A DNA stretch of 64,000 nucleotides, taken from contig NZ_PTJD01000003.1 in assembly GCF_002934625.1 (NCBI RefSeq), forward strand, positions 248,001 to 312,000, written 5' to 3'. The stretch is from Kineococcus xinjiangensis (lineage in GTDB: Bacteria; Actinomycetota; Actinomycetes; Actinomycetales; Kineococcaceae). The number at the start of each line of letters is the position of its first letter. Positions within the stretch are counted from its first letter, which is position 1. The position numbers and the translations under genes were made by a program. Under the pieces are notes generated by a model. It made no database searches and was not told where the DNA came from. It saw only the letters and a list, made by a program, of their open reading frames with translations. This document shows positions 47,798 through 63,069 of this stretch, in pieces.

Positions 47798-47952
47798 ACG
47801 CCCGCGCCGCCGGTGGCAGGACGGGCCCCGCCACCGCCCGCGTGGTGGGTCCGGTGCGGCTCGGGGCCCCGCTAGGGTGAGGCGGCCCCGGCTGCGGGTG
47901 CCGGTCCCGGATGGAAGGTCGCCCGCGTGCACGTCGCTCCCGTGGCGCTCCG

Positions 47953-49986
47953 GTGAGCTGGGCAGGTGCGGTTCCGGCGCTGCTGCTGGGGGCGCTGGTG
48001 CTCCTCCTGCCGGGCGTGCTGGTCCTGCGCGCCCTCGGCCAGCGCGGCCTGGCGGTGGCGGGTGCGGCCCCGGCCGTGTCCGTCCTCCTCGTCGGTGCCG
48101 CCGCGGTCGTGGCGCCCCGCGCGGGCCTGGGCTGGGGCGCGGCCCCGGTGGTGCTGGTCACCGGCGGCGCCGCGCTGGCCGCCTGGCTCTGCTCCCTCCT
48201 GCTGGGCGTGCTCGACGCCCGCGCTCCCGCCGCCGGCCCGGACCACCCCGAGCGGGGCCCCGACGTCGCCGGACCCCGGGCCCGCAGGCCCACATCGCAC
48301 GGTCCCGACGTCGAGGGCCCCGACGGGCGCCGGGTGCTGGCCGCCGCGGCCGGCGGCCTGGCGATCGCCGCGGTGCTGGCCGCCGCGTCGGTGCACCGGG
48401 GGCTGGGCCGCCCCGACGCCGTGTCGCAGACCTTCGACGGGATGTTCCACCTGAACGCCCTCCAGCGGGTCGCCGACACCTCCAACGCCTCGCCGGAGTC
48501 GGTGGCGCGGCTGACCGCCCCCTTCGCCGAGGACGTCTACTACCCCGCCGGGTGGCACGCGGTCGGGGGGCTGCTGGTGGAGGCCGGGGTGCCGCCCGTC
48601 GTGGCCGCCAACGCGCTGGTGCTGCTCATCGCCGGGCTGGTCTGGCCGCTGGCGTGCGTGCTGCTGGTGCGGCGCCTCGCCGGGGCCCGCCCGCTGCCGG
48701 TGCTGCTGGCGGCGGTGCTCAGCCAGGCGTTCGTGGCGTTCCCGTGGCTGATCGACCGCTGGGGGGTGCTGTGGCCGCAGACGCTGGGCACGGCGCTGCT
48801 GCCCGTGGTCCTCGCCGCGCTGCTGCACGCGAGCGCGCCGGCCCCGGTCGCGGGCGGCGCGCAGCCGGCGGCGGGGGAGCGGGTCCGCTCGCTGCTGGTC
48901 GCCGTGGCGGCTCTCGCCGGCACCGCCCTGGCGCACCCGGGGTCCTTCCTGCTCGCGGTCCTGCTGGCCGCGGCGCTGCTGCTGGCCACGGCGCTGCCGG
49001 CGGCACTGTCGCCGTGGCGCGGCGGTCGCGCGCAGTGGCGGGCGCTGGCGGCGACGGGCGCGGCGGCCGCCCTGGTGGCGGCGGGTGCGGTGGCGGTGGG
49101 CCCGCGGGTCTTCGCGATGCGCACCGCCGACTGGCCCGCGACGCGCGGCGTGGCCGACGCCGTGGGGGAGGTGCTGCTCAACGCCCCCGCGGGTGCCTCC
49201 CGCAACGTCGTCGTCTCGGCGCTGGTCCTCCTCGGCCTGGTGGTGGCGCTGCGGCGGCCGCGGTGGCGGTGGCTGGCGGTGGGGCACCTCCTCGTCGCGG
49301 CGCTGGACGTGATCGCCGCGGGCACCGACGCGCCGTTCTCGCAGCTGCTGACGGCCCCCTGGTACAACGACCGCTTCCGCCTGGCCGCGACGGTCCCGGT
49401 GACGGGGGTGGCGCTGGCGGTGCTCGGGACGCTGTGGGTGGCGCGCCTGCTGCGCCGGTTCCGCTCCCGCCACGCGGTGCCCGCCGTGGCCGCCGCGCTG
49501 GCGCTGGCCGCGGCTGTGCCGCAGGTGCGCGGCAACGGCGACCAGCTGGGCCTGACCAACGTCCGCGTCGAGCGGCACCCGATGCGGTCGCTGGTGGACC
49601 CGGACGAGCAGCGCTTCCTGGAGGACCTGCGCCGCCACGTGCCCGAGGGGGCGGTGGTGGCGGGCACGCCGTGGGACGGCAGCGCCTTCGCCTACGCCCT
49701 CTCCCGCGGGGTGGAGGTGCTCTACCCGCACATGCGCGGCGAGCTCGGGGAGGACGCGCGCTACCTCGCCGACCACCTCCAGGACGCGGCCACGGACCCG
49801 CTGGTGTGCCCGATGCTGGAGCAGCGGCGGGTCCGCTACGTGCTGGACATGGGGCGGCTGTGGGACCCGCCGGCCCTGGCCCCGGCCGGGTACACGGCCT
49901 TCAGGCTGTTCCAGGACAGGCCGGGCTTCCGCCTCGCCGCCTCGGAGGGGGACGTGCGCCTCTACGAGATCACCGCCTGTGGCTGA
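47953..49986 (+). CDS. DUF6541-like polytopic membrane protein of wall polysaccharide locus
   Basis: A protein of about 677 residues with at least 12 hydrophobic segments followed by a soluble C-terminal domain that ends in VRLYEITACG. Conserved-looking loops are SQTFDGMFHLNALQRVADTSNASP and YYPAGWHAVGG, which recall GT-C glycosyltransferases and the actinobacterial DUF6541 family. The family name is from memory. The start is unsure: GTG 47953 overlaps the stop of a nine-codon frame (47927) as GTGA; an ATG at 47911 is in frame but has no SD. Its end overlaps or abuts the next gene. Confidence 0.85.
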   Translation: MSWAGAVPALLLGALVLLLPGVLVLRALGQRGLAVAGAAPAVSVLLVGAAAVVAPRAGLGWGAAPVVLVTGGAALAAWLCSLLLGVLDARAPAAGPDHPERGPDVAGPRARRPTSHGPDVEGPDGRRVLAAAAGGLAIAAVLAAASVHRGLGRPDAVSQTFDGMFHLNALQRVADTSNASPESVARLTAPFAEDVYYPAGWHAVGGLLVEAGVPPVVAANALVLLIAGLVWPLACVLLVRRLAGARPLPVLLAAVLSQAFVAFPWLIDRWGVLWPQTLGTALLPVVLAALLHASAPAPVAGGAQPAAGERVRSLLVAVAALAGTALAHPGSFLLAVLLAAALLLATALPAALSPWRGGRAQWRALAATGAAAALVAAGAVAVGPRVFAMRTADWPATRGVADAVGEVLLNAPAGASRNVVVSALVLLGLVVALRRPRWRWLAVGHLLVAALDVIAAGTDAPFSQLLTAPWYNDRFRLAATVPVTGVALAVLGTLWVARLLRRFRSRHAVPAVAAALALAAAVPQVRGNGDQLGLTNVRVERHPMRSLVDPDEQRFLEDLRRHVPEGAVVAGTPWDGSAFAYALSRGVEVLYPHMRGELGEDARYLADHLQDAATDPLVCPMLEQRRVRYVLDMGRLWDPPALAPAGYTAFRLFQDRPGFRLAASEGDVRLYEITACG

Positions 49987-50047
49987 GCCGCCCGTGGCCG
50001 AACCCAACCGCCCCGAACCGAACCGCCTGGACCTGAGAGGAGCGGCC

Positions 50048-52012
50048 GTGCCGAGCACTGAGAGCCGCGCCACCGCCCCGCGCGTGGTGGCCGTCGTCGT
50101 CGCCCACGACCGCCGCGAGCTGCTGCTGGCGGGCCTGGCCGCCCTGGCCGGGCAGACGCGGCGCCCCGACGCGGTCGTGGTCGTGGACAACGCCTCCTCC
50201 GACGGCAGCGCCGGGGCCGTCGAGGCCGCCCGCGACTCCCTCGGCTTCGGCGCCGCGCTGGAGGTCCTGCGCCTGGAGCGCAACACCGGGGGAGCCGGCG
50301 GCTTCGCCGCGGGGCTGGCCAGGGCGGTGCGCGCCCACGCCGCCGACCTGGTCTGGCTGATGGACGACGACACCGTGCCGCGCCGGGAGGCGCTGGCCGC
50401 CGCGCTCGCGGCGCGCGAGGCCGTGCCCGGGGAGCCGCCCGCGGTGGTGGCGAGCCGGGTGGTGTGGACGGACGGGCGCGAGCACCCCATGAACACCCCT
50501 CGCCGCCGCCCGCGCGCCTCCCGCGACGAGCTCACGGCGGCCGCCGCGGCCGGTGGCACCCCGGTGCGCTCGGCCTCCTTCGTGGCGATCCTCGTCGACG
50601 CGGCGGCGGTGCGGGCCGACGGCCTGCCCGTGGCCGACTTCTTCCTCTGGAACGACGACTTCGAGTACACGACCCGGCTGCTGCGCCGCCGCCGCGGCCT
50701 CGCGGTGGCCGCCAGCACCGTGGAGCACCGCACCCGCGTCTTCGGCGGGACCGACGCGGACCCCGGCGAGCGCTTCGTCCTCGAGGTCCGCAACAAGCTG
50801 TGGACGTACCTGCGCTGCCGGACGCTGGAGCCGGTGGAGCTGGCGCTCTACGGCGGGTCGACGCTGCGTCGCTGGGCGCGCACGATCGCGCGCTCGCAGC
50901 GGCGGGGCGTGCTGCTGCGGGGCCTGGCGGGCGGCCTGGCGCAGGGCCTGGGCCGGGCTCCGCGCCCGACCGCCGAGGTGCTGGCCGGGCTGGGGGAGGT
51001 CTCGGCGGACGTGGCGGCGGTCGAGGCCGCGGCGGGGCGCTCCACGGGCACCGCCGAGGTGCCGGTCGAGGCGGTCGAGGAGGCCCTGCTGCCGCCGTTC
51101 TCGGTGCTGCTGCCCGTCTGGGCCGGTGACGAGCCCGCCCAGTTGCGCCGGGCCCTGGCCAGCGTCACCGCGGAGCAGGAGCTGCGCCCGGCGGAGGTGG
51201 TGGTCGTCCGCGACGGCCCCGTGCCCGCCGCGCTGCAGGAGGTGCTTGACTCGCTGGGGCGGATCTCGGGCGGTGTGCCCGTGCGGGTGCTGCCCCTGCC
51301 GCGCAACGTGGGGCTGGCGCGTGCGCTGGAGGAGGGCCTGGCCGCCTGCGCCCACGACGTGGTGGCGCGGATGGACGCCGACGACATCAGCCTGCCGCAC
51401 CGCTTCGCCGTGCAGCTGCCCCTGCTGGCCGGTGGGCCCGGCCGGGCGGGCGCGGACCTGGTGGGGGCGGGGCTGCTGGAGATCGGTCGCGACGAGCACG
51501 ACGTCGTCGGACGGCGCACGCCCCCGACGGGGGCGGCGCGGATCGCGGCGTACGCCCGCTTCCACGACCCGTTCAACCACCCGACGGTCGTCTACCGCCG
51601 CTCCGCCGTGGCCGCCGCTGGGGGCTACCGGGACCTGCCGCTGCTGGAGGACTACTGGCTCTTCGCGCGGATGATCGGGGCGGGGGCGGCGGTGGTCAAC
51701 GTCGCCGAGCCGCTGGTCCTCTACCGGGTGGGCAGCGCGGGGGCCGGTTCCTACGCGCGCCGCGGCGGGCTGCGGCTGTGGCGCTCGGAGGTGGAGCTGC
51801 AGGCCCACCTGCGCCGCGAGGGGTTCACCACCGGTGCGCAGTGGGCCCGCAACGTGGCCGTGCGCGGCGGATACCGCTTCGTGCCGGAGGGGCTGCGCCG
51901 GGTCGCGTACCGGCGCCTGATCGCCGGCGGGGGTGTCGCGGGAGGGCGGGGCGCGCCCGGGCTCGCCGCCGGGGCGCTTCACGGATCGCGCACATCGCAC
52001 CGGATACCCTGA
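50048..52012 (+). CDS. double GT2 glycosyltransferase (GlfT1-like domain plus second GT2 domain)
   Basis: A 654-residue protein with two GT-A modules. The first (about 12-280) has VVDNASSDGS, NTGGAGGFAAG, the metal triad DDD at 106-108 and WNDDFE at 201-206, resembling the galactofuranosyltransferase GlfT1. The second (about 351-600) has FSVLLPVW, RDG at 388-390, DADD at 443-446 and YRDLPLLEDYWLF, as in AmsE-like enzymes. It would start galactan synthesis on the lipid linker. The GTG at 50048 is chosen for AGAGGAG 6 nt upstream; an in-frame GTG at 49979 overlaps the previous gene. Confidence 0.9.
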   Translation: MPSTESRATAPRVVAVVVAHDRRELLLAGLAALAGQTRRPDAVVVVDNASSDGSAGAVEAARDSLGFGAALEVLRLERNTGGAGGFAAGLARAVRAHAADLVWLMDDDTVPRREALAAALAAREAVPGEPPAVVASRVVWTDGREHPMNTPRRRPRASRDELTAAAAAGGTPVRSASFVAILVDAAAVRADGLPVADFFLWNDDFEYTTRLLRRRRGLAVAASTVEHRTRVFGGTDADPGERFVLEVRNKLWTYLRCRTLEPVELALYGGSTLRRWARTIARSQRRGVLLRGLAGGLAQGLGRAPRPTAEVLAGLGEVSADVAAVEAAAGRSTGTAEVPVEAVEEALLPPFSVLLPVWAGDEPAQLRRALASVTAEQELRPAEVVVVRDGPVPAALQEVLDSLGRISGGVPVRVLPLPRNVGLARALEEGLAACAHDVVARMDADDISLPHRFAVQLPLLAGGPGRAGADLVGAGLLEIGRDEHDVVGRRTPPTGAARIAAYARFHDPFNHPTVVYRRSAVAAAGGYRDLPLLEDYWLFARMIGAGAAVVNVAEPLVLYRVGSAGAGSYARRGGLRLWRSEVELQAHLRREGFTTGAQWARNVAVRGGYRFVPEGLRRVAYRRLIAGGGVAGGRGAPGLAAGALHGSRTSHRIP

Positions 52013-52051: not shown

Positions 52052-55407
<3,356 letters not shown>

Positions 55408-55412
55408 GCGGG

Positions 55413-56312
55413 GTGACCGGCGCTCCGGCGGGCGCGCGCCCCCGGGCGGGGGAGGACGGCTTCGAGATCCCCGGCCGCGGCCGCGGGCTGCTCGACGTCC
55501 TGCAGCGCCGGTACCTGCTGCGGCTGCTGGTCCGCAAGGAGCTGCGGGTCCGCTACCAGGGTTCCGCGCTGGGGCTGCTGTGGTCCTACGTGAAGCCTGC
55601 GGTGCAGTTCTGCGTCTTCTTCTTCGCCCTGGGCGTCTTCCTCAAGGTGGGCCAGGACGTCGAGAACTTCGCGGTGTACCTGTTCGCCGGGATCGTCGTC
55701 ATCAACTACTTCTCGGAGACGTTCGGCAACGCCACCCGGGCGGTGGTGGGCAACGCACCGCTGGTGAAGAAGATCTACCTGCCGCGGGAGCTGTTCCCCG
55801 TCGCCTCGGCGTGGGTGGCGGCGGTGCACTTCCTGCCCCAGTTCGTGGTCCTGCTCATCGGCACGCTGATCGCGGGCTGGCGGCCGACCCTCGGCCAGCT
55901 CGCGGGCGGGGCGCTCGGGTTCGCGATCATCGTGGTGCTCGCGGTCGGCCTCGGGCTGCTCTTCGGGGCGATCAACGTGCTCTACCGGGACTTCGAGAAC
56001 ATCGTCGACCTGCTGCTGCTCGTCGTGACGTGGACCTCACCGGTGCTCTACACCTGGGTGCACGTCCGCGACGCCATCCGCCGGGCCGAGCTGCCGGACT
56101 GGCTGCTGACGGTGTACCAGCTCAACCCCGTCACCTCGGCGGTGGAGCTGTTCCACTACGGCTTCTGGTACGGCGCGACGACGAAGCCCTACGAGCTGCC
56201 GCCGAACCTGCTGTGGAACGGCCTGCTGTCCCTCGGCATCGCCGTCGCCGTCCTCGTCCTCGGCCAGTTCACCTTCCGCCGGCTCGAGGGCCGCTTCGCG
56301 CAGGAGCTGTAG
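55413..56312 (+). CDS. wzm: polysaccharide ABC exporter permease (Wzm)
   Basis: A 299-residue ABC-2 permease with six helices. RKELRVRYQGSALGLLWSYVKP near 45 and YLPRELFPVASAWVAAVHFLPQFV are typical of Wzm/TagG-type proteins. With Wzt it would export the lipid-linked galactan. It follows glfT2 by 5 bp; the GTG at 55413 lies after AGAGGG. Confidence 0.93.
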   Translation: MTGAPAGARPRAGEDGFEIPGRGRGLLDVLQRRYLLRLLVRKELRVRYQGSALGLLWSYVKPAVQFCVFFFALGVFLKVGQDVENFAVYLFAGIVVINYFSETFGNATRAVVGNAPLVKKIYLPRELFPVASAWVAAVHFLPQFVVLLIGTLIAGWRPTLGQLAGGALGFAIIVVLAVGLGLLFGAINVLYRDFENIVDLLLLVVTWTSPVLYTWVHVRDAIRRAELPDWLLTVYQLNPVTSAVELFHYGFWYGATTKPYELPPNLLWNGLLSLGIAVAVLVLGQFTFRRLEGRFAQEL

Positions 56313-56318
56313 GAGACC

Positions 56319-57062
56319 GTGACCACGATGAGCAGCACCCGCCGGACGAGCACCACCATCGCGGTGCAGTCCGTCTCCAAGCGCTTCGTGCTGCGCCACG
56401 ACCGCAGCCTGAAGAACCTCGCCGTCTCCGCCTTCCGCGGCAAGGACCTCGGCAACTCCTTCCTCGCCCTCGACGACGTCGGCTTCGAGGTGGGGGAGGG
56501 GGAGGCCGTGGCCCTGCTCGGCCTGAACGGCTCCGGCAAGTCGACCCTGCTGAAGCTCATCTCCGGGGTGATGAGCCCCGACGCCGGCCAGGTCCTCCTG
56601 CGCGGGCGCATCGCCGGGCTCATCGAGGTCGGGGCGGGCTTCCACCCGGACCTCACCGGCCGGGAGAACGTCTACCTCAACGGGGCGATCCTCGGCATGG
56701 ACGAGGCCACGATCAAGCAGCGCTTCGACCAGATCGTCGCGTTCTCCGAGATCGAGCGCTTCATCGACACCGAGGTCAAGTTCTACTCCTCGGGGATGTT
56801 CCTGCGCCTCGCCTTCGCCGTGGCCGTGCACACCGACCCCGAGATCTTCCTCATCGACGAGATCCTCGCCGTCGGGGACGCGCCCTTCCAGCAGAAGTGC
56901 CTCGGCCGCATCCGGGAGCTGCGCGAGGAGGGCCGCACCCTCGTCATCGTCAGCCACGACCTCGACATGGTCTCCACGCTGTGCTCGCGCGGCGTGGTCC
57001 TGGAGCAGGGGAGGCTCGTCGCCGACGAGGACATCCACGCCGCGGTGGGCCGGCTGCGGTGA
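56319..57062 (+). CDS. wzt: polysaccharide ABC exporter ATPase (Wzt)
   Basis: A 247-residue ATPase. Walker A GLNGSGKST is near 68-76, the unusual signature FYSSGMFLRLAFAVA takes the place of LSGGQ as in Wzt/TagH, and Walker B is IFLIDEILAVGD. There is no C-terminal carbohydrate-binding extension, as in the mycobacterial orthologue Rv3781. Its stop overlaps a possible PAP2 start as GTGA. Confidence 0.94.
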   Translation: MTTMSSTRRTSTTIAVQSVSKRFVLRHDRSLKNLAVSAFRGKDLGNSFLALDDVGFEVGEGEAVALLGLNGSGKSTLLKLISGVMSPDAGQVLLRGRIAGLIEVGAGFHPDLTGRENVYLNGAILGMDEATIKQRFDQIVAFSEIERFIDTEVKFYSSGMFLRLAFAVAVHTDPEIFLIDEILAVGDAPFQQKCLGRIRELREEGRTLVIVSHDLDMVSTLCSRGVVLEQGRLVADEDIHAAVGRLR

Positions 57063-57139: not shown

Positions 57140-57781
57140 GTGACGACGAGCGAGGCGGCCACGAGCGGGGCGGCGGTGATCGAGGAGGCGGTGATCGAGG
57201 AGGCCGCGGCGACCGGAGCGGCCCTGCCGGTCGAGGCCCCGCCGACGAACGCCGACCTGCGGCTGCTGCTGGCGGTGCAGTCGCGCCTGCGCACCCCCGC
57301 GGTGGTGCGCACGGCGCAGCTGATGAGCCACGCCGGTGAGCACGCGGCGGTCTGGATCGCCGCGGGCGCCGCCGGTGCCCTCGTCGACCGTGGGCGGCGC
57401 CGGGAGTGGGTGGAGGCGACCGCCGCGGTCGTGGCCGCCCACGGGGCCAGCGTCGTGCTGAAGCGGGTCACCCGCCGGACCCGCCCGCAGCACCCGCACC
57501 TGCTGGTGCACGCGGGAACGCCCAGCCGCTGGAGCCTGCCCTCCTCGCACGCCACCTCCACCACGGCGGCGGTCGTGGCGTTCGGGCGCCTCCTCGGCGC
57601 GCGGCGGCTGGCGCCGCTGACACCGGCGATGGCGCTCTCGCGCCTCGTCGTCGGCGTGCACTACCCGAGCGACGTCGCCGCCGGCAGCGCCCTCGGCGCC
57701 GCGGTGGCCGGGGTCGCCCCGCGGGTGCTGCGCCTGCTGCCCGCCCCGCTCGGCCGCACCCGCGCGGACCGCCGCCGGTGA
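57140..57781 (+). CDS. PAP2 family phosphatase
   Basis: A 213-residue phosphatase with all three PAP2 motifs: KRVTRRTRPQ, PSSHAT and SRLVVGVHYPSD. It is predicted to have several membrane segments. In mycobacteria the equivalent (Rv3807c) sits between glfT2 and ubiA and is proposed to dephosphorylate decaprenyl-phosphoryl-5-phosphoribose. The GTG at 57140 has GGGGGAGG 9 nt upstream; an in-frame GTG at 57059 overlapping the wzt stop would add 27 residues. Confidence 0.92.
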   Translation: MTTSEAATSGAAVIEEAVIEEAAATGAALPVEAPPTNADLRLLLAVQSRLRTPAVVRTAQLMSHAGEHAAVWIAAGAAGALVDRGRRREWVEATAAVVAAHGASVVLKRVTRRTRPQHPHLLVHAGTPSRWSLPSSHATSTTAAVVAFGRLLGARRLAPLTPAMALSRLVVGVHYPSDVAAGSALGAAVAGVAPRVLRLLPAPLGRTRADRRR

Positions 57782-58692
57782 GCACCGCAGCCCTCGTCAA
57801 GGCCGGCCGCCCCCGCCAGTGGGTCAAGAACGTCCTCGTCGTCGCGCCGCTGCTGCCCGCCGGGTGGTCGCAGCTCGACGGGGAGGCCTTCCTGGGTGTC
57901 GCCGTGGCGTTCGGGGTCTTCTGCCTCGTCGCCAGCGCCATCTACATGATCAACGACGTGCGGGACGTCGAGGCCGACCGCGCCCACCCGAAGAAGCGGT
58001 TCCGGCCGATCGCCTCCGGCGCCGTGGCCCCCCGCACGGCAGCCGTCACGGCCGTCGTGCTCCTCGTCGTCGCCCACGCGATCGCCGCCCTCTGGGGACT
58101 GCGGGGCGCCCTGTGGGGCTTCACGGGGGCGGAGGGGAGCTGGGACTACGACCTCCTCGTCGTGATGGCGATCTACACCGTCATCCAGCTCGCGTACTGC
58201 TTCGGCGTCAAGCACGAGCCCGTCGTGGAGCTGGCCTGCGTCGCCTCCGGCTTCCTGCTGCGCGCCCTGGCCGGCGGGACCGCGGCGGGCATCCCGCTGT
58301 CGGAGTGGTTCCTCATGACCACCGCCTTCGGCTCCCTGTTCATGGCCGCCGGCAAGCGCTACGCGGAGTCGCGCCAGGGGGAGCTGACCGGGCGGCAGGT
58401 GCGGCGCGTGGTGCAGCGCTACACCCCGACGTACCTGCGCTTCGTGTGGACGCTGTCCGCCACGGTCGTCGTCACCGCCTACTCGCTGTGGGCGTTCACG
58501 GCGCTGTCCAACTCCAGCCAGCGCTGGGCCGTGGTCTCCATCGTCCCCTTCGTCCTGGCGATCATGCGCTACGCCGTGGACGTCGACCGCGGGGAGGCCG
58601 AGGAGCCGGAGGAGATCGTCCTCCACGACCGGGTCCTCCTCGTGCTCGGCCTGGTCTGGGTCGCGGTCCTCCTGGTGGCGGTGTACCTGTGA
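57778..58692 (+). CDS. ubiA: decaprenyl-phosphate phosphoribosyltransferase (UbiA family)
   Basis: A 304-residue UbiA-fold membrane enzyme that moves 5-phosphoribose from PRPP to decaprenyl phosphate, the first step to the arabinose donor DPA. Motifs are RPRQWVKNVLVVAPL at the start, NDVRDVEADRAHPKKRFRPIASG near 60, and a second region with YCFGVKHEPVVELACVASGFLLRALAGG. Size and place match Rv3806c. GTGA overlap on both sides. Confidence 0.94.
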   Translation: MSTAALVKAGRPRQWVKNVLVVAPLLPAGWSQLDGEAFLGVAVAFGVFCLVASAIYMINDVRDVEADRAHPKKRFRPIASGAVAPRTAAVTAVVLLVVAHAIAALWGLRGALWGFTGAEGSWDYDLLVVMAIYTVIQLAYCFGVKHEPVVELACVASGFLLRALAGGTAAGIPLSEWFLMTTAFGSLFMAAGKRYAESRQGELTGRQVRRVVQRYTPTYLRFVWTLSATVVVTAYSLWAFTALSNSSQRWAVVSIVPFVLAIMRYAVDVDRGEAEEPEEIVLHDRVLLVLGLVWVAVLLVAVYL

Positions 58693-59153
58693 CCGACCAG
58701 CCCGCGAACGCGTCCGTCCCGCAGCCGTCCCGCCTGGAGACCCTGATGCGCAGCGACCGGGCCGGGGAGGTCTTCCGCTTCCTCGTCACCGGCGGCATCG
58801 CCTACCTGGCCGACGTGCTGATCTTCAACGTGCTGCTCTTCAGCGGCGTGCACCACCTCACGTCCCGGGTGGTCTCCAGCGTCATCGCGATCGGCATCGC
58901 CTTCCTCGGCAGCCGGTACTACACGTGGGCGCACCGGCGCAGCGAGCACCCGGGCCGCGAGTACGCCATGTTCTTCCTCCTCAGCGCCGTCGCCGCCGGC
59001 ATCCAGGTGCTCTGCCTGTACATCTCCCACAACGTGCTGGGCTTCACCAGCGCGCTCGCGGACAACATCTCCAGCAACATCATCGGCATGGCCCTCGCGA
59101 TGGTGTTCCGGTTCCTGACCTTCCGCTCGCTGGTCTTCCCCGACCGCTCCTGA
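58689..59153 (+). CDS. GtrA family membrane protein
   Basis: A 154-residue GtrA protein with four membrane helices (FRFLVTGGIAYLADVLIFNVLLF; SRYYTWAHRR; FFLLSAVAAGIQVLCLY). It is the second GtrA in the window. Its place between ubiA and a GT87 gene suggests a role in flipping a decaprenyl-phosphate sugar; a mycobacterial GtrA protein (Rv3789) near the DPA genes has such a proposal. GTGA and TGATG overlaps tie it to its neighbours. Confidence 0.92.
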   Translation: MTDQPANASVPQPSRLETLMRSDRAGEVFRFLVTGGIAYLADVLIFNVLLFSGVHHLTSRVVSSVIAIGIAFLGSRYYTWAHRRSEHPGREYAMFFLLSAVAAGIQVLCLYISHNVLGFTSALADNISSNIIGMALAMVFRFLTFRSLVFPDRS

Positions 59154-60445
59154 TGCGGCGCGTGCTCCGGCGCCTGGCGGCCGGGCGCGCCGGTCTCGTG
59201 GTGCCGGTCGCGCTGGCCGTCCTCTGGTGCGCGGTGGTCGTCACCACCCACCTCACGGCGCAGTGGTGGCAGCCCGGCTACGACCTGGCCGTCTACCGGC
59301 GCGGGGCGCGCGACCTGCTCGCCGGCCGCGACCTGTACCTGGCGGCCACCGACCGCGGGCACTACTTCGTGTACCCCCCGCTGGCGGCGGTGCTCATGGT
59401 GCCGCTGCTGCTGCTGCCGCCCTCCGCGGCGCTGCTCATCTGGGACGCGGTCCTGGTGGTGGCGGTGGTCCTCGGCACCGGCTGGCTGCTGCGGGCCGTT
59501 CCCGTCCGCGCCGGGGCCGGGCCGCGCGCACCGCTGGTCACGGGCCTGTCGCTGGCGGCGGTCCTCGTCAGCGACCCGTTCCGGGAGTCGGTGGTGCTGG
59601 GCCAGATCAGCCCGCTCGTCGTCCTGGGGCTGGTGGTCGGCTGCCTGCTGGGCGGGCGGCGCGGCGCGGTGCTGGCCGCCCTGGCGGCGTCGGTCAAGGT
59701 GACGCCCGCCCTGGTGCTGACCGCCGCGGTGAACCGGACGGCGCGGCGGGCCTTCGCGGTGCGCGTCGGCGTGGCCGGGATCGCCCTCACGCTGCTGGGG
59801 GCCGTGGCGGCGCCGGCCTCCTGGCGGCACTACTTCACGGACCTGCTGTGGAACTCAGCGCGGGTCGCGGCGCCGGACACCCCGACGAACAACTCCCTGG
59901 CGGGGGCCCTCGCCCACGTCGGCGTCCCGGGCCCCACGGCGCTCGTCGCGGGCGCGGCGCTGTCCGTCCCGCTGCTGGTGGTGCTGCTGCTCGCCGCGCG
60001 GCGCACCGACTGGTCGGGTCCCGCCGACCGGATGCGCTTCGGGCTGCTCGTCAGCCTCGTGGCCGTCCTCGTGACCCCGGTGGCGTGGACGCACCACGCG
60101 CTCGCCGCCCCGCTGGCGGCGGTGGTGCTGCTGGCGGCCCGGCCGCGCGGCCTGCGGCTGGCCGTGGTCGTGGTGGTGGGGCTGCTGCCGTGGCTGCCGC
60201 CGGTGCTGGAGGTGGCGGCGGACCTGAGGGGCGGCTGGCGGGTGCTCAGCGCCCCCCTGGCGCTGACGCGGCCCCTGTCCCTCCTGGTGCTCGTGGCGCT
60301 GCTCCTGCCCGGCAGGCGGGTCCTGGACCTGGACGCCGCCGCGCCGGCCGCGGGGGGCCGCGCGGACGTGCCGGTGCGACCGAGGGGCGTGCTGCCGGAG
60401 CGCCCGAGCGCAGCGCCCGGCTCCGCGGGGGCGGGTCAGGCCTGA
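59153..60445 (+). CDS. GT87 family membrane glycosyltransferase
   Basis: A 430-residue GT-C protein with 9-10 helices. The first loop has GYDLAVYRRGARDLLAGRDLY with the acidic residue expected for GT-C catalysis, followed by FVYPPLAAVLMVPL. These fit the DUF2029/GT87 family, whose best-known members are mannosyltransferases using polyprenyl-phosphate sugars. In this locus it may add arabinose or mannose to the galactan. ATG overlaps the gtrA stop. Confidence 0.9.
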   Translation: MRRVLRRLAAGRAGLVVPVALAVLWCAVVVTTHLTAQWWQPGYDLAVYRRGARDLLAGRDLYLAATDRGHYFVYPPLAAVLMVPLLLLPPSAALLIWDAVLVVAVVLGTGWLLRAVPVRAGAGPRAPLVTGLSLAAVLVSDPFRESVVLGQISPLVVLGLVVGCLLGGRRGAVLAALAASVKVTPALVLTAAVNRTARRAFAVRVGVAGIALTLLGAVAAPASWRHYFTDLLWNSARVAAPDTPTNNSLAGALAHVGVPGPTALVAGAALSVPLLVVLLLAARRTDWSGPADRMRFGLLVSLVAVLVTPVAWTHHALAAPLAAVVLLAARPRGLRLAVVVVVGLLPWLPPVLEVAADLRGGWRVLSAPLALTRPLSLLVLVALLLPGRRVLDLDAAAPAAGGRADVPVRPRGVLPERPSAAPGSAGAGQA

Positions 60446-61261: not shown

Positions 61262-61828
61262 CTACCGCCGCCGCGGGTCGGCTGCGTGCAGGATCGCGAC
61301 CGCCCCGCGCCAGCTCCCCGCGAGGTTGGGGAACGGCACCGTGCTGATCATCAGCGCACCGGCGGCGAGGGCCGTGCCCAGCACCAGCGGCGCCTGCGCG
61401 TGGGAGAGCACGGACAGCATCATCAGCAGCCCCGCGACCGGGATCGGCAGCCCCACGAAGCAGGTGCTCTGCTTCACCAGCGGGAACCGGGCCAGGCGCC
61501 ACGCCCCCGCCAGGAGGAAGCCCACCGCCGCCGCCAGACCCACCACGGGCAGCTCGTGCAGCGCCCCCGCGTACAGCGCCATCGCCGGCACCACGCCGAA
61601 GGACAGCAGGTCCGCCAGCGAGTCCAGCGTCGCCCCGAACCCCTCGTCCTGCCGGCCCCGGCGCGCCACCGGCCCGTCGACGAGGTCGCACAGCGCGCCG
61701 ATGGCCACCAGCAGCGCCGCGACCGCGAAGTCGCCGTTGAGGACGGCGAGCAGGCCGAGGAAGCCGGCCACCAGGTTCGCGCTCGTGATCGCGTTCGCCA
61801 GCGTCACGCAGTCGCGTGAACTGCTCAT
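61262..61828 (-). CDS. pssA: CDP-diacylglycerol-serine O-phosphatidyltransferase (PssA-like)
   Basis: A 188-residue CDP-alcohol phosphatidyltransferase with five or six helices. The family motif D-G-x2-A-R-x8-G-x3-D-x3-D is intact in DGPVARRGRQDEGFGATLDSLAD near 52-74. It would join serine to CDP-diacylglycerol to give phosphatidylserine. Its ATG overlaps the stop of the decarboxylase fusion, which uses its product; this context favours PssA over other alcohol transferases. Slightly short for the family. Confidence 0.9.
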   Translation of the reverse strand: MSSSRDCVTLANAITSANLVAGFLGLLAVLNGDFAVAALLVAIGALCDLVDGPVARRGRQDEGFGATLDSLADLLSFGVVPAMALYAGALHELPVVGLAAAVGFLLAGAWRLARFPLVKQSTCFVGLPIPVAGLLMMLSVLSHAQAPLVLGTALAAGALMISTVPFPNLAGSWRGAVAILHAADPRRR

Positions 61829-63069
61829 CCTCCGGGGCGGTAGCGGGCGAGGGGGGTGATCCCCGCGCGGACACGGTCACCAGGGCGCACCAGGACGTGG
61901 ACGCCGCCCTCCGGCAGCAGCACGTCCGTGCGGGAGCTCAGGTGGATGAGGCCGATGCGCTGACCGGTCTCCACCTGGTCACCCGGCTGGATCCAGCTGG
62001 AGATCTTGCGGGCGATCAGCCCCGCCATCGGCACGACGACCACGCGGCCCGAGGGCCCGTCGATCGCGATGCGCGTGCGCGTGTTGTGCCCGGCACGGGA
62101 GAACAGGGCCGGGGCGAAACCGCCCTCGACGAACTCCATCTCCGCCACCTTGCCCTCCACGGGGCTGCGGTTGACGTGGACGTTGTGCAGGTTGAGGAAC
62201 GTGGCGATGCGCACGGCCCGCCCGCCCGGCAGCCACGGCTCGTCCACCGACTCGTCCACGCTGCGCACCACGCCGTCCGCGGCGGCGTAGACCACGCCCG
62301 GCTCCGCGGTGAGCGGGCGCTCCGGGTCGCGGAAGAACGCGGTGAACCCGGCGGCCGCACCCAGCGCCAGCCAGCCGCTGCGCCGCCGCTTCAGCAGCAG
62401 GGCCGCGCCCAGTGCCGCCGAGGGGACGATGTAGCGCCGCCCTTCCGACCACGTCCGGCGGGTGAGGGGCAGCAGGGAGCCGGTGGGCTCCTCCGCGCGC
62501 ACCTCCGCACCCGCCGAGCACCCGAACAGGAACGCCGGCGGGAAGTTCAGCAGCGAGACCCGCCGCCGCACGTGCGGGAAGCGCCGGCGCAGCTCCGCCT
62601 GCACGAAGGGGGAGTACTGCAGCACCAGCGCCACCCCGTGCAGCCGCAGCGCCCGGGGGATCTGGTCGAGGATGCGCTGGCGCAGCTCCGGCTCCAGCGA
62701 GGTGTACGGCAGGCCGGAGACGACGATGTCGGCCCGCTCGCCGCGCAGGTGCTCGTGCAGGTTCTCCGCCGAGTCGCACACCACCTGCAGCCGGGGGTCG
62801 TCGAAGCGCTGCGTGAGCAGCTCCGCGAGGTGGGGGTCGATCTCCAGGGCGAGCAGCCGGGCGTCCGGGCGCAGCCGCGCGAGGATCTCCCCGGTGTAGA
62901 CGCCGGTGCCCGGGCCGAGCTCCACGACGAGGTCCGCGCCCGGCACGTCGGCCAGGTCGAGCATGTCCCGCACTGCCGTGCGGGACGTCGGGAGCACCGC
63001 CCCGACCCTCCTCGGGTGCGTCACGAAGGCCCTCAGGAAGCTCAACCGGTCAGCGAATTGCCGTCTCAT
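61825..63069 (-). CDS. fused phospholipid N-methyltransferase and phosphatidylserine decarboxylase
   Basis: A single 414-residue frame joins two enzymes. Residues 1-195 are a PmtA-like methyltransferase: FLRAFVTHPRRVGAVLPTSR, SAM motif VELGPGTG at 49-56 and VVSGLPY at 116-122. Residues about 205-414 are a small-type phosphatidylserine decarboxylase: FFRDPERP at 245, ADG with Asp265, HNVHVNRSPVEGKV with His295/His298, AGLIARKI and the cleavage region RIGLIHLSSRTDVLLP, where the usual G-S is S378-S379. A hydrophobic stretch (214-245) links them. It would decarboxylate PS to PE and then methylate PE. GGAAGGGA precedes the ATG. Confidence 0.9.
   Translation of the reverse strand: MRRQFADRLSFLRAFVTHPRRVGAVLPTSRTAVRDMLDLADVPGADLVVELGPGTGVYTGEILARLRPDARLLALEIDPHLAELLTQRFDDPRLQVVCDSAENLHEHLRGERADIVVSGLPYTSLEPELRQRILDQIPRALRLHGVALVLQYSPFVQAELRRRFPHVRRRVSLLNFPPAFLFGCSAGAEVRAEEPTGSLLPLTRRTWSEGRRYIVPSAALGAALLLKRRRSGWLALGAAAGFTAFFRDPERPLTAEPGVVYAAADGVVRSVDESVDEPWLPGGRAVRIATFLNLHNVHVNRSPVEGKVAEMEFVEGGFAPALFSRAGHNTRTRIAIDGPSGRVVVVPMAGLIARKISSWIQPGDQVETGQRIGLIHLSSRTDVLLPEGGVHVLVRPGDRVRAGITPLARYRPGG

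Follow-up and report, generated by a model that had tools for sequence, protein, structure and literature searches.

The window analysed here, a 64,000-nucleotide stretch of Kineococcus xinjiangensis DNA, raises the question of what a single protein with two GT2 glycosyltransferase domains does at the head of a set of galactan genes. The fused gene (50048..52012, + strand; 654 aa), delimited by its open reading frame, Pfam, alignment and an AlphaFold2 model, directly follows a gene for a DUF6541 membrane protein (47911..49986, +; PF20176, 523.6 bits). Downstream on the same strand, Pfam and NCBIfam identify glf, encoding UDP-galactopyranose mutase (52106..53293, +; TIGR00031, 309 bits, over the cut-off), a wzm-like ABC permease gene (55440..56312, +; approximate start) and a wzt-like ABC ATPase gene (56319..57062, +), and Pfam identifies glfT2 (53290..55407, +; PF17994 and PF19320), encoding the galactan polymerase. 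Beyond these lie genes for a PAP2 phosphatase (57206..57781, +; approximate start), a UbiA-type decaprenyl-phosphate phosphoribosyltransferase (57754..58692, +; NF008978, 401 bits, over the cut-off in the Pfam and NCBIfam searches), a GtrA-like membrane protein (58719..59153, +; approximate start) and a GT87 membrane glycosyltransferase (59150..60445, +; approximate start). Galactan start-up, as the excerpts consulted describe it, is known from mycobacteria and corynebacteria, with WbbL and GlfT1 as separate proteins there.

The reading frame from the GTG at 50048 to 52012, taken from the window sequence, is open for 654 codons, and a likely ribosome-binding site read directly from the same sequence, GAGAGGAG (50035..50042, +), stands ahead of this GTG. 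An in-frame GTG further upstream, at 49979, would give a 677 aa version, but 50048 is the better start because the alignable part of the orthologues begins at about residues 1-12 of the 654-aa form. Matches spanning both halves occur in 11 of 39 related genomes, in one frame each: nine are from the same family and two from another family (f9). The nine come from a set of 11 genomes that belong to another genus of the family, in which no spanning match was found in G002 and G005, both fragmented assemblies. Throughout the same-family copies and the two f9 genomes, the matched stretch is free of stops short of its natural end.

The preliminary description had placed two GT2 modules, each with its own acidic motif, in this 654-residue chain, and Pfam together with AlphaFold2 confirms two complete GT-A domains with the motifs at D106-D107-D108 and D443-A444-D445-D446. 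Both halves contain GT2 stretches by Pfam (two for PF00535, the best at 362-461, and two for PF13641, the best at 11-242), and each half belongs to GT2/GT-A by scoring above the PF00535/PF13641 gathering score and having both an acidic metal motif and an acidic catalytic position. The N-terminal GlfT1-like GT-A domain with its C-terminal helices (aa 11-330; 50078..51037, +; Pfam, NCBIfam, alignment and model) carries its metal motif at 50363..50371 (+), invariant in 20 of 20 aligned rows. Its W201-N-D-D-F-E206 (50648..50665, +) is the probable catalytic-base motif from the alignment, with W201, D203, D204, F205 and E206 invariant in all 20 rows; W103 and H227 (50726..50728, +), the latter 23 residues after D204, are equally invariant. 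In the C-terminal GT-A domain (aa 349-626; 51092..51925, +; Pfam, alignment and model), D443, D445 and D446 of the metal motif (51374..51385, +) are invariant in 23 of 23 aligned rows, two of which are diverged paralogues. The wider R-x-D-A-D-D pattern likewise keeps its R, first D and last two Ds in 23/23, and at the probable catalytic-base position E534-D535 (51647..51652, +; alignment) D535 is invariant in 23/23 and E534 nearly so.

Both sets of catalytic residues are intact among 12 aligned fused proteins, so that the loss of catalytic residues in one half, which would have counted against the preliminary description, is not seen. We therefore reject a dead pseudo-domain in either half on the strength of these invariant acidic and catalytic positions; both halves look active from their sequences. 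AlphaFold2 likewise returns two confidently folded GT-A domains (mean pLDDT 89.2, pTM 0.65), with their mutual placement less certain than each fold. Among the solved-structure matches listed for the N half, the best is Nocardia brasiliensis GlfT2 (9nj0; Z 22.8, rmsd 3.2 over 280 residues, 19% identity), while the C half is about equally like many GT2 enzymes by fold (Z 20-23). The whole model matches K4CP (2z86) and PmHS2 (8vh7) best, and a search of solved structures by single protein sequence gave one weak match; such fold matches are no proof of function.

How close is the N half to GlfT1? Its best NCBIfam model is GlfT1 (NF050113), at 76.3 bits against a cut-off of 330 (77.2 bits on repeat scoring), and that of the C half is the exopolysaccharide enzyme EpsE, at 46.5 bits against 450. 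Because both scores fall under their cut-offs, neither half is a curated equivalog, and the Pfam and NCBIfam searches gave no AmsE-named match for the C half, which had been described as AmsE-like. In hhalign, the N profile scores highest with two families of f45 genomes (248.5 and 235.6) and with GlfT1 (226.7), and lower with GlfT2 (127.4), WbbL (104.9) and C (47.9). A tree of N, the GlfT1-like families and GlfT2 as the sole other GT2 puts the N halves in a clade of their own (20 rows, support 100/99). A clade of N and GlfT1 alone is rejected at p-AU 0.023, a moderate result from a test made after the tree was seen.

The profile searches thus agree with the earlier label of a GlfT1-like module, but not in the sense of an orthologue: at 76 bits against 330 and in a separate clade, the N half is not a GlfT1 member by either cut-off or clade. 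In the strict sense it groups away from GlfT1, an outcome that would count against the preliminary description. True GlfT1 was accordingly rejected as its identity. GlfT2 was rejected as well, since Pfam does not find Glft2_N and GlfT2_domain3 in the fused protein; both are matched in the downstream glfT2. We regard the N half as a third, separate GlfT1-like lineage that could nevertheless work like GlfT1.

To compare the C half with WbbL, we built a reference from five GT2 genes that adjoin rmlD in genomes with GlfT1 (f22), taking a position beside rmlD to mark wbbL. The resulting 5-row profile finds nothing in the window's genome at E 1e-15, and hhalign finds no specific likeness between C and WbbL (probability 65%, score 40.5), so that we reject the C half as WbbL by descent. 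A weaker WbbL-like GT2 is encoded elsewhere in 6 of 21 genomes with N or C (60-131 bits, vs 572 in G067), and a separate second-sugar enzyme is therefore possible in those six. As this search took in one genome with a true WbbL (G067), it shows that a close WbbL is absent elsewhere and makes no pattern of exclusion. Of 29 genomes with N or C, 24 have an RmlC match, over the cut-off in only 8; at E 1e-10 there is none in the other five (G014, G061, G079, G096 and G275, the last 81% complete). RmlD is not matched at E 1e-30 in 4 of 11 tested genomes with N or C (G003, G061, G116 and G275). Given these gaps in the rhamnose genes, rhamnose is unlikely as the donor of C in general, though possible in the window's family; RmlC, RmlD and a wecA-type gene are present elsewhere in the window's own genome.

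We then asked which genes accompany the two halves in 296 genomes of the class, with limits of at least 403 bits for N, 348 bits for C and 240 bits for GlfT1. N was found in 16 genomes, C in 17, GlfT2 in 63 and GlfT1 in 28. All 16 N genomes have GlfT2, against 63/296 overall (Fisher p 3e-12, uncorrected for kinship), the weakest GlfT2 match among them being 53 bits (G285). None of the 16 has GlfT1 at 240 bits or above, which indicates that N replaces other GlfT1 rather than accompanying it. C is present in 15 of the 16 N genomes and N in 15 of the 17 C genomes. N stands without C once, in a genome that is 72% complete (G051), and C without N in G015 and G033, of which G033 also lacks GlfT2; a weaker C-like gene in G160 (276 bits) was left out of the C count. 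In N's stead, G015 has a true GlfT1, which at 378 bits exceeds the cut-off and is divergent beside C-glf-glfT2; C is thus found together with initiating transferases of both kinds.

At the survey limits, 20 of the GlfT2 genomes lack both N and GlfT1. The five f45 stretches fetched from this group that have glf-glfT2-wzm-wzt carry two tandem GlfT1-like GT2 genes ahead of glf, in place of N and C (L077 9266-10821, L078, L079, L095 and L096), a further arrangement of galactan start genes. Some GlfT1-bearing genomes also have a second, diverged GlfT2-like gene near wzt-glfT1 (L097 5110-6807, L098 6436-8097), with the main GlfT2 elsewhere in the same genomes.

In mycobacteria, the order of action is WecA, WbbL, GlfT1 (which adds two Galf), GlfT2 and Wzm-Wzt, according to the excerpts consulted of two papers (PMC10951656, PMC7168186). 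By analogy, a WecA-type enzyme would transfer HexNAc-1-phosphate onto polyprenyl phosphate, and the C-terminal GT2 domain would add a second linker sugar onto prenyl-PP-HexNAc. This would be the step of WbbL in mycobacteria and probably that of a TagA-type enzyme in the f6 genomes discussed below. The N-terminal GlfT1-like domain would then add the first Galf residue(s) from Glf-made UDP-Galf, GlfT2 would polymerise, Wzm-Wzt would export, and the fusion could let a short intermediate be handed from one site to the other. The acceptors, the donors, the order of the two steps and the hand-over are inferred. We consider the N half probably the galactan-initiating Galf transferase, and give the C half slightly better than even chances of being the second-linker-sugar transferase; that both assignments hold together is about an even call.

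For the fused protein as a whole, we put forward, at roughly even odds, a bifunctional enzyme of the lipid-linked linker of cell-wall (arabino)galactan. It is consistent with the complete GT2 domains, the conserved pairing and recurrent fusion, the lack of overlap with GlfT1, the strict company of GlfT2 in the survey, the wecA-type neighbour in Micrococcaceae and the locus order DUF6541-fusion-glf-glfT2-wzm-wzt. Counting against it, the wecA-type gene of the window's genome is on another contig (C1:387025), and the part consulted of a Corynebacterium glutamicum two-hybrid table lists no GlfT1-WbbL interaction (PMC4213368). The earlier suggestion of two successive transfers at the linker end is the reading that the evidence favours most, and it is upheld in part: the catalytic residues are kept, the pair tracks the galactan genes and there is a wecA-type neighbour, but identity with WbbL and GlfT1 by descent does not hold. 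With a C half that lacks WbbL likeness and an N half from a separate GlfT1-like lineage, the fusion is not WbbL and GlfT1 joined by descent.

Alternatively, both domains may act after the linker as Galf (or hexose) transferases, with N adding the first Galf and C the second. The neighbouring glf would supply UDP-Galf, some genomes with both halves seem to lack dTDP-rhamnose synthesis (no RmlC match in 5/29, no RmlD in G061 and G275, at the thresholds above), and mycobacterial GlfT1 alone makes two different linkages, as the excerpt consulted states (PMC7168186). By profile, however, C is far from all Galf transferases (it scores 48 with N, 46 with GlfT1 and 28 with GlfT2), and in G015 it lies beside an over-cut-off GlfT1 that would not need a second Galf transferase. 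We consider this alternative unlikely, though it fares best among those we weighed. Slightly less probable still is that N starts the galactan while C decorates or ends the chain with a side sugar or cap. This would suit the EpsE match of C, although that match is far under its cut-off, and the occurrence of C without GlfT2 in G033; against it, the adjacency to and repeated fusion with an initiating transferase, together with the wecA-type neighbour, point to the start of the chain.

The wecA-type neighbour was seen in Micrococcaceae, where sua5 and a wecA-type gene flank the fused gene in 24 of 25 loci (the exception is L186), with all three genes on one strand ahead of atpB. The end of the fused gene and the wecA-type start are 3 bases apart in one Sinomonas locus (L217). 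Two of these loci (L217 and L231) were searched with Pfam and NCBIfam and the remainder with tblastn, and the 25 are not independent, as they comprise 10 Rothia, 5 Sinomonas, 3 Kocuria and 7 others. A wecA-type gene was found in 25 of 25 genomes tested, in each case under the curated cut-off, which was made for enterobacterial WecA. Two f6 genomes have, between their sua5 and wecA-type genes, one gene of the WecG/TagA family and one of the GlfT1 family (244-245 bits, below the cut-off), whereas in the window's genome the sua5-wecA gap holds nothing extra. As the gap may be empty or hold either TagA and GlfT1 or the N-C fusion, its contents suggest that C is a counterpart of TagA or WbbL. In G061, however, the gap holds phosphatase-like and GlyA-like genes (read by eye), and it is thus not reserved for glycan genes.

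The two f6 genes lie on the other strand between sua5 and the wecA-type gene (L066 8375-12342, L067 7921-11869), a pair that suggests a teichoic-acid-like linker carrying Galf. Between the fusion and the wecA-type gene, Kocuria, Rothia, Arthrobacter and relatives often have a UDP-GlcNAc 4,6-dehydratase-like gene (L231 10004-12091, L234, L237, L244 and others), and the first linker sugar may accordingly be a modified HexNAc. This same gene, present in many Micrococcaceae loci, could instead point to another WecA-dependent wall polymer served by the fused enzyme, with the galactan genes as mere neighbours, and the Micrococcaceae loci with a wecA-type gene have no glf or glfT2 within the fetched stretches. 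Such a role seems improbable to us, given that every N genome in the class survey has GlfT2 and that the N half falls in the GlfT1-like part of GT2.

We also investigated how the two halves are arranged across actinobacteria. Of 80 named loci, the best 80 of at least 373 and a selection that favours fused copies, 75 are fused and 5 split. The fused loci belong to Kineosporiaceae, Promicromonosporaceae, Micrococcaceae, Nocardioidaceae, Intrasporangiaceae and Actinomycetaceae, as well as Geodermatophilaceae (metagenome genomes) and, once, Microbacteriaceae; no family name is attached to four of them. Among 38 fetched stretches, N and C are fused in f1, f9, f38 and one f45 genome, adjacent and co-directional in f8, f12, f17, f19, f20, f43 and another f45 genome, separated by a DUF6541 gene and on opposite strands in f4, and at a distance of kilobases in f35 and f32. 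In every case seen in these stretches and the named loci, N comes first whenever the halves are fused or neighbours on one strand. One f17 genome has a second GT2 paralogue resembling the C half, situated between its N-C pair and glf (L083 5318-6157).

When 54 fused and 16 split rows are placed on one joint tree (70 rows), the fused or split state needs 8 changes, at least 6 of them forced by starred branches, and joining or splitting has therefore happened repeatedly. As this is a quick tree with four long branches flagged, we claim no single origin or direction for the fusion. The fusion is a conserved pair and no accident. An assembly or frameshift artefact joining two genes, an idea to which the two separate genes in many relatives might lend colour, can be dismissed, as fused copies occur in unrelated assemblies of eight named families with the frame open through the joint.

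If the linker assignment is right, it would have consequences beyond this locus. Tentatively, and with less confidence than in the assignment itself, we propose a separate, widespread galactan start in actinobacteria of non-mycobacterial type, in which a two-headed enzyme or its split halves would build the whole link between HexNAc and galactan, with a second sugar that is not necessarily rhamnose. Such a route would explain the absence of a close GlfT1 and a close WbbL in these genomes. No description of the N-C pair was found in the titles and abstract openings of the papers listed in literature searches on GlfT1, galactan start-up and fused actinobacterial GT2 proteins. The pair offers candidate genes for the linker and galactan start in at least eight other actinobacterial families, where linker chemistry can be tested; a second sugar other than rhamnose would mean a wall linker more diverse than has been assumed. 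Having both domains fused by nature would also make the protein a convenient tool for studying the hand-over of a short lipid-linked intermediate.

The locus in the window itself is probably one for arabinogalactan. About 11-16 kb past the window, AftA and a single Emb-type arabinosyltransferase are encoded side by side (L280 13170-18184, G000:C3), which makes arabinogalactan likely in this organism. A title cited in PMC7601052 and PMC2587704, in the parts consulted, reports arabinogalactan in Kineococcus aurantiacus. This setting does not hold generally: besides the reference G067, an Emb match was found in only 2 of 24 genomes, the window's own and G018; Emb was not found in three other genomes of the window's family, which we count against the linker assignment. 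Elsewhere in the window, a single 414-aa frame (61825-63069, -) has a methyltransferase-like domain followed by a phosphatidylserine decarboxylase domain, next to a CDP-alcohol phosphatidyltransferase gene.

Among known systems, GlfT1 (NF050113; Rv3782 of mycobacteria) is like the N half in being a GT2 of GT-A fold with GGAGGF and DDD motifs, and both accompany Glf, GlfT2 and Wzm-Wzt, the N half in genomes without GlfT1. Unlike GlfT1, the N half is fused to a second GT2, scores far under the GlfT1 cut-off and forms a separate clade. It also has W-N-D-D-F-E where the inspected GlfT1 sequences have GDE and the window's GlfT2 has WDDAEY. GlfT2 resembles it through the 9nj0 structure match, the best among those listed; however, the fused protein has neither of the GlfT2-specific domains, and the gene for a true GlfT2 is the second one downstream. 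WbbL and the C half are both GT2 enzymes with the same proposed step, the addition of the second linker sugar, but share no specific sequence likeness, and the rhamnose genes were not found in all C genomes. A GT2 replacement of WbbL has a precedent, as Klebsiella O7 ORF3, an adapter rhamnosyltransferase, is described in the excerpt consulted as doing WbbL's job without significant WbbL likeness (PMC11231755). ORF3 differs from the C half in being a separate protein for another polymer.

In domain count, the fusion is most like K4CP (2z86) and PmHS2 (8vh7), which likewise combine two GT-A domains in a single chain of comparable length. The likeness is limited to architecture, as the domain arrangement differs from both (rmsd 17 over 435 residues for 2z86_A). 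K4CP, a chondroitin polymerase, and PmHS2, a heparosan synthase, are alternating polymerases. Rather than polymerising by alternation as they do, the fusion would, as we propose, make two single steps.
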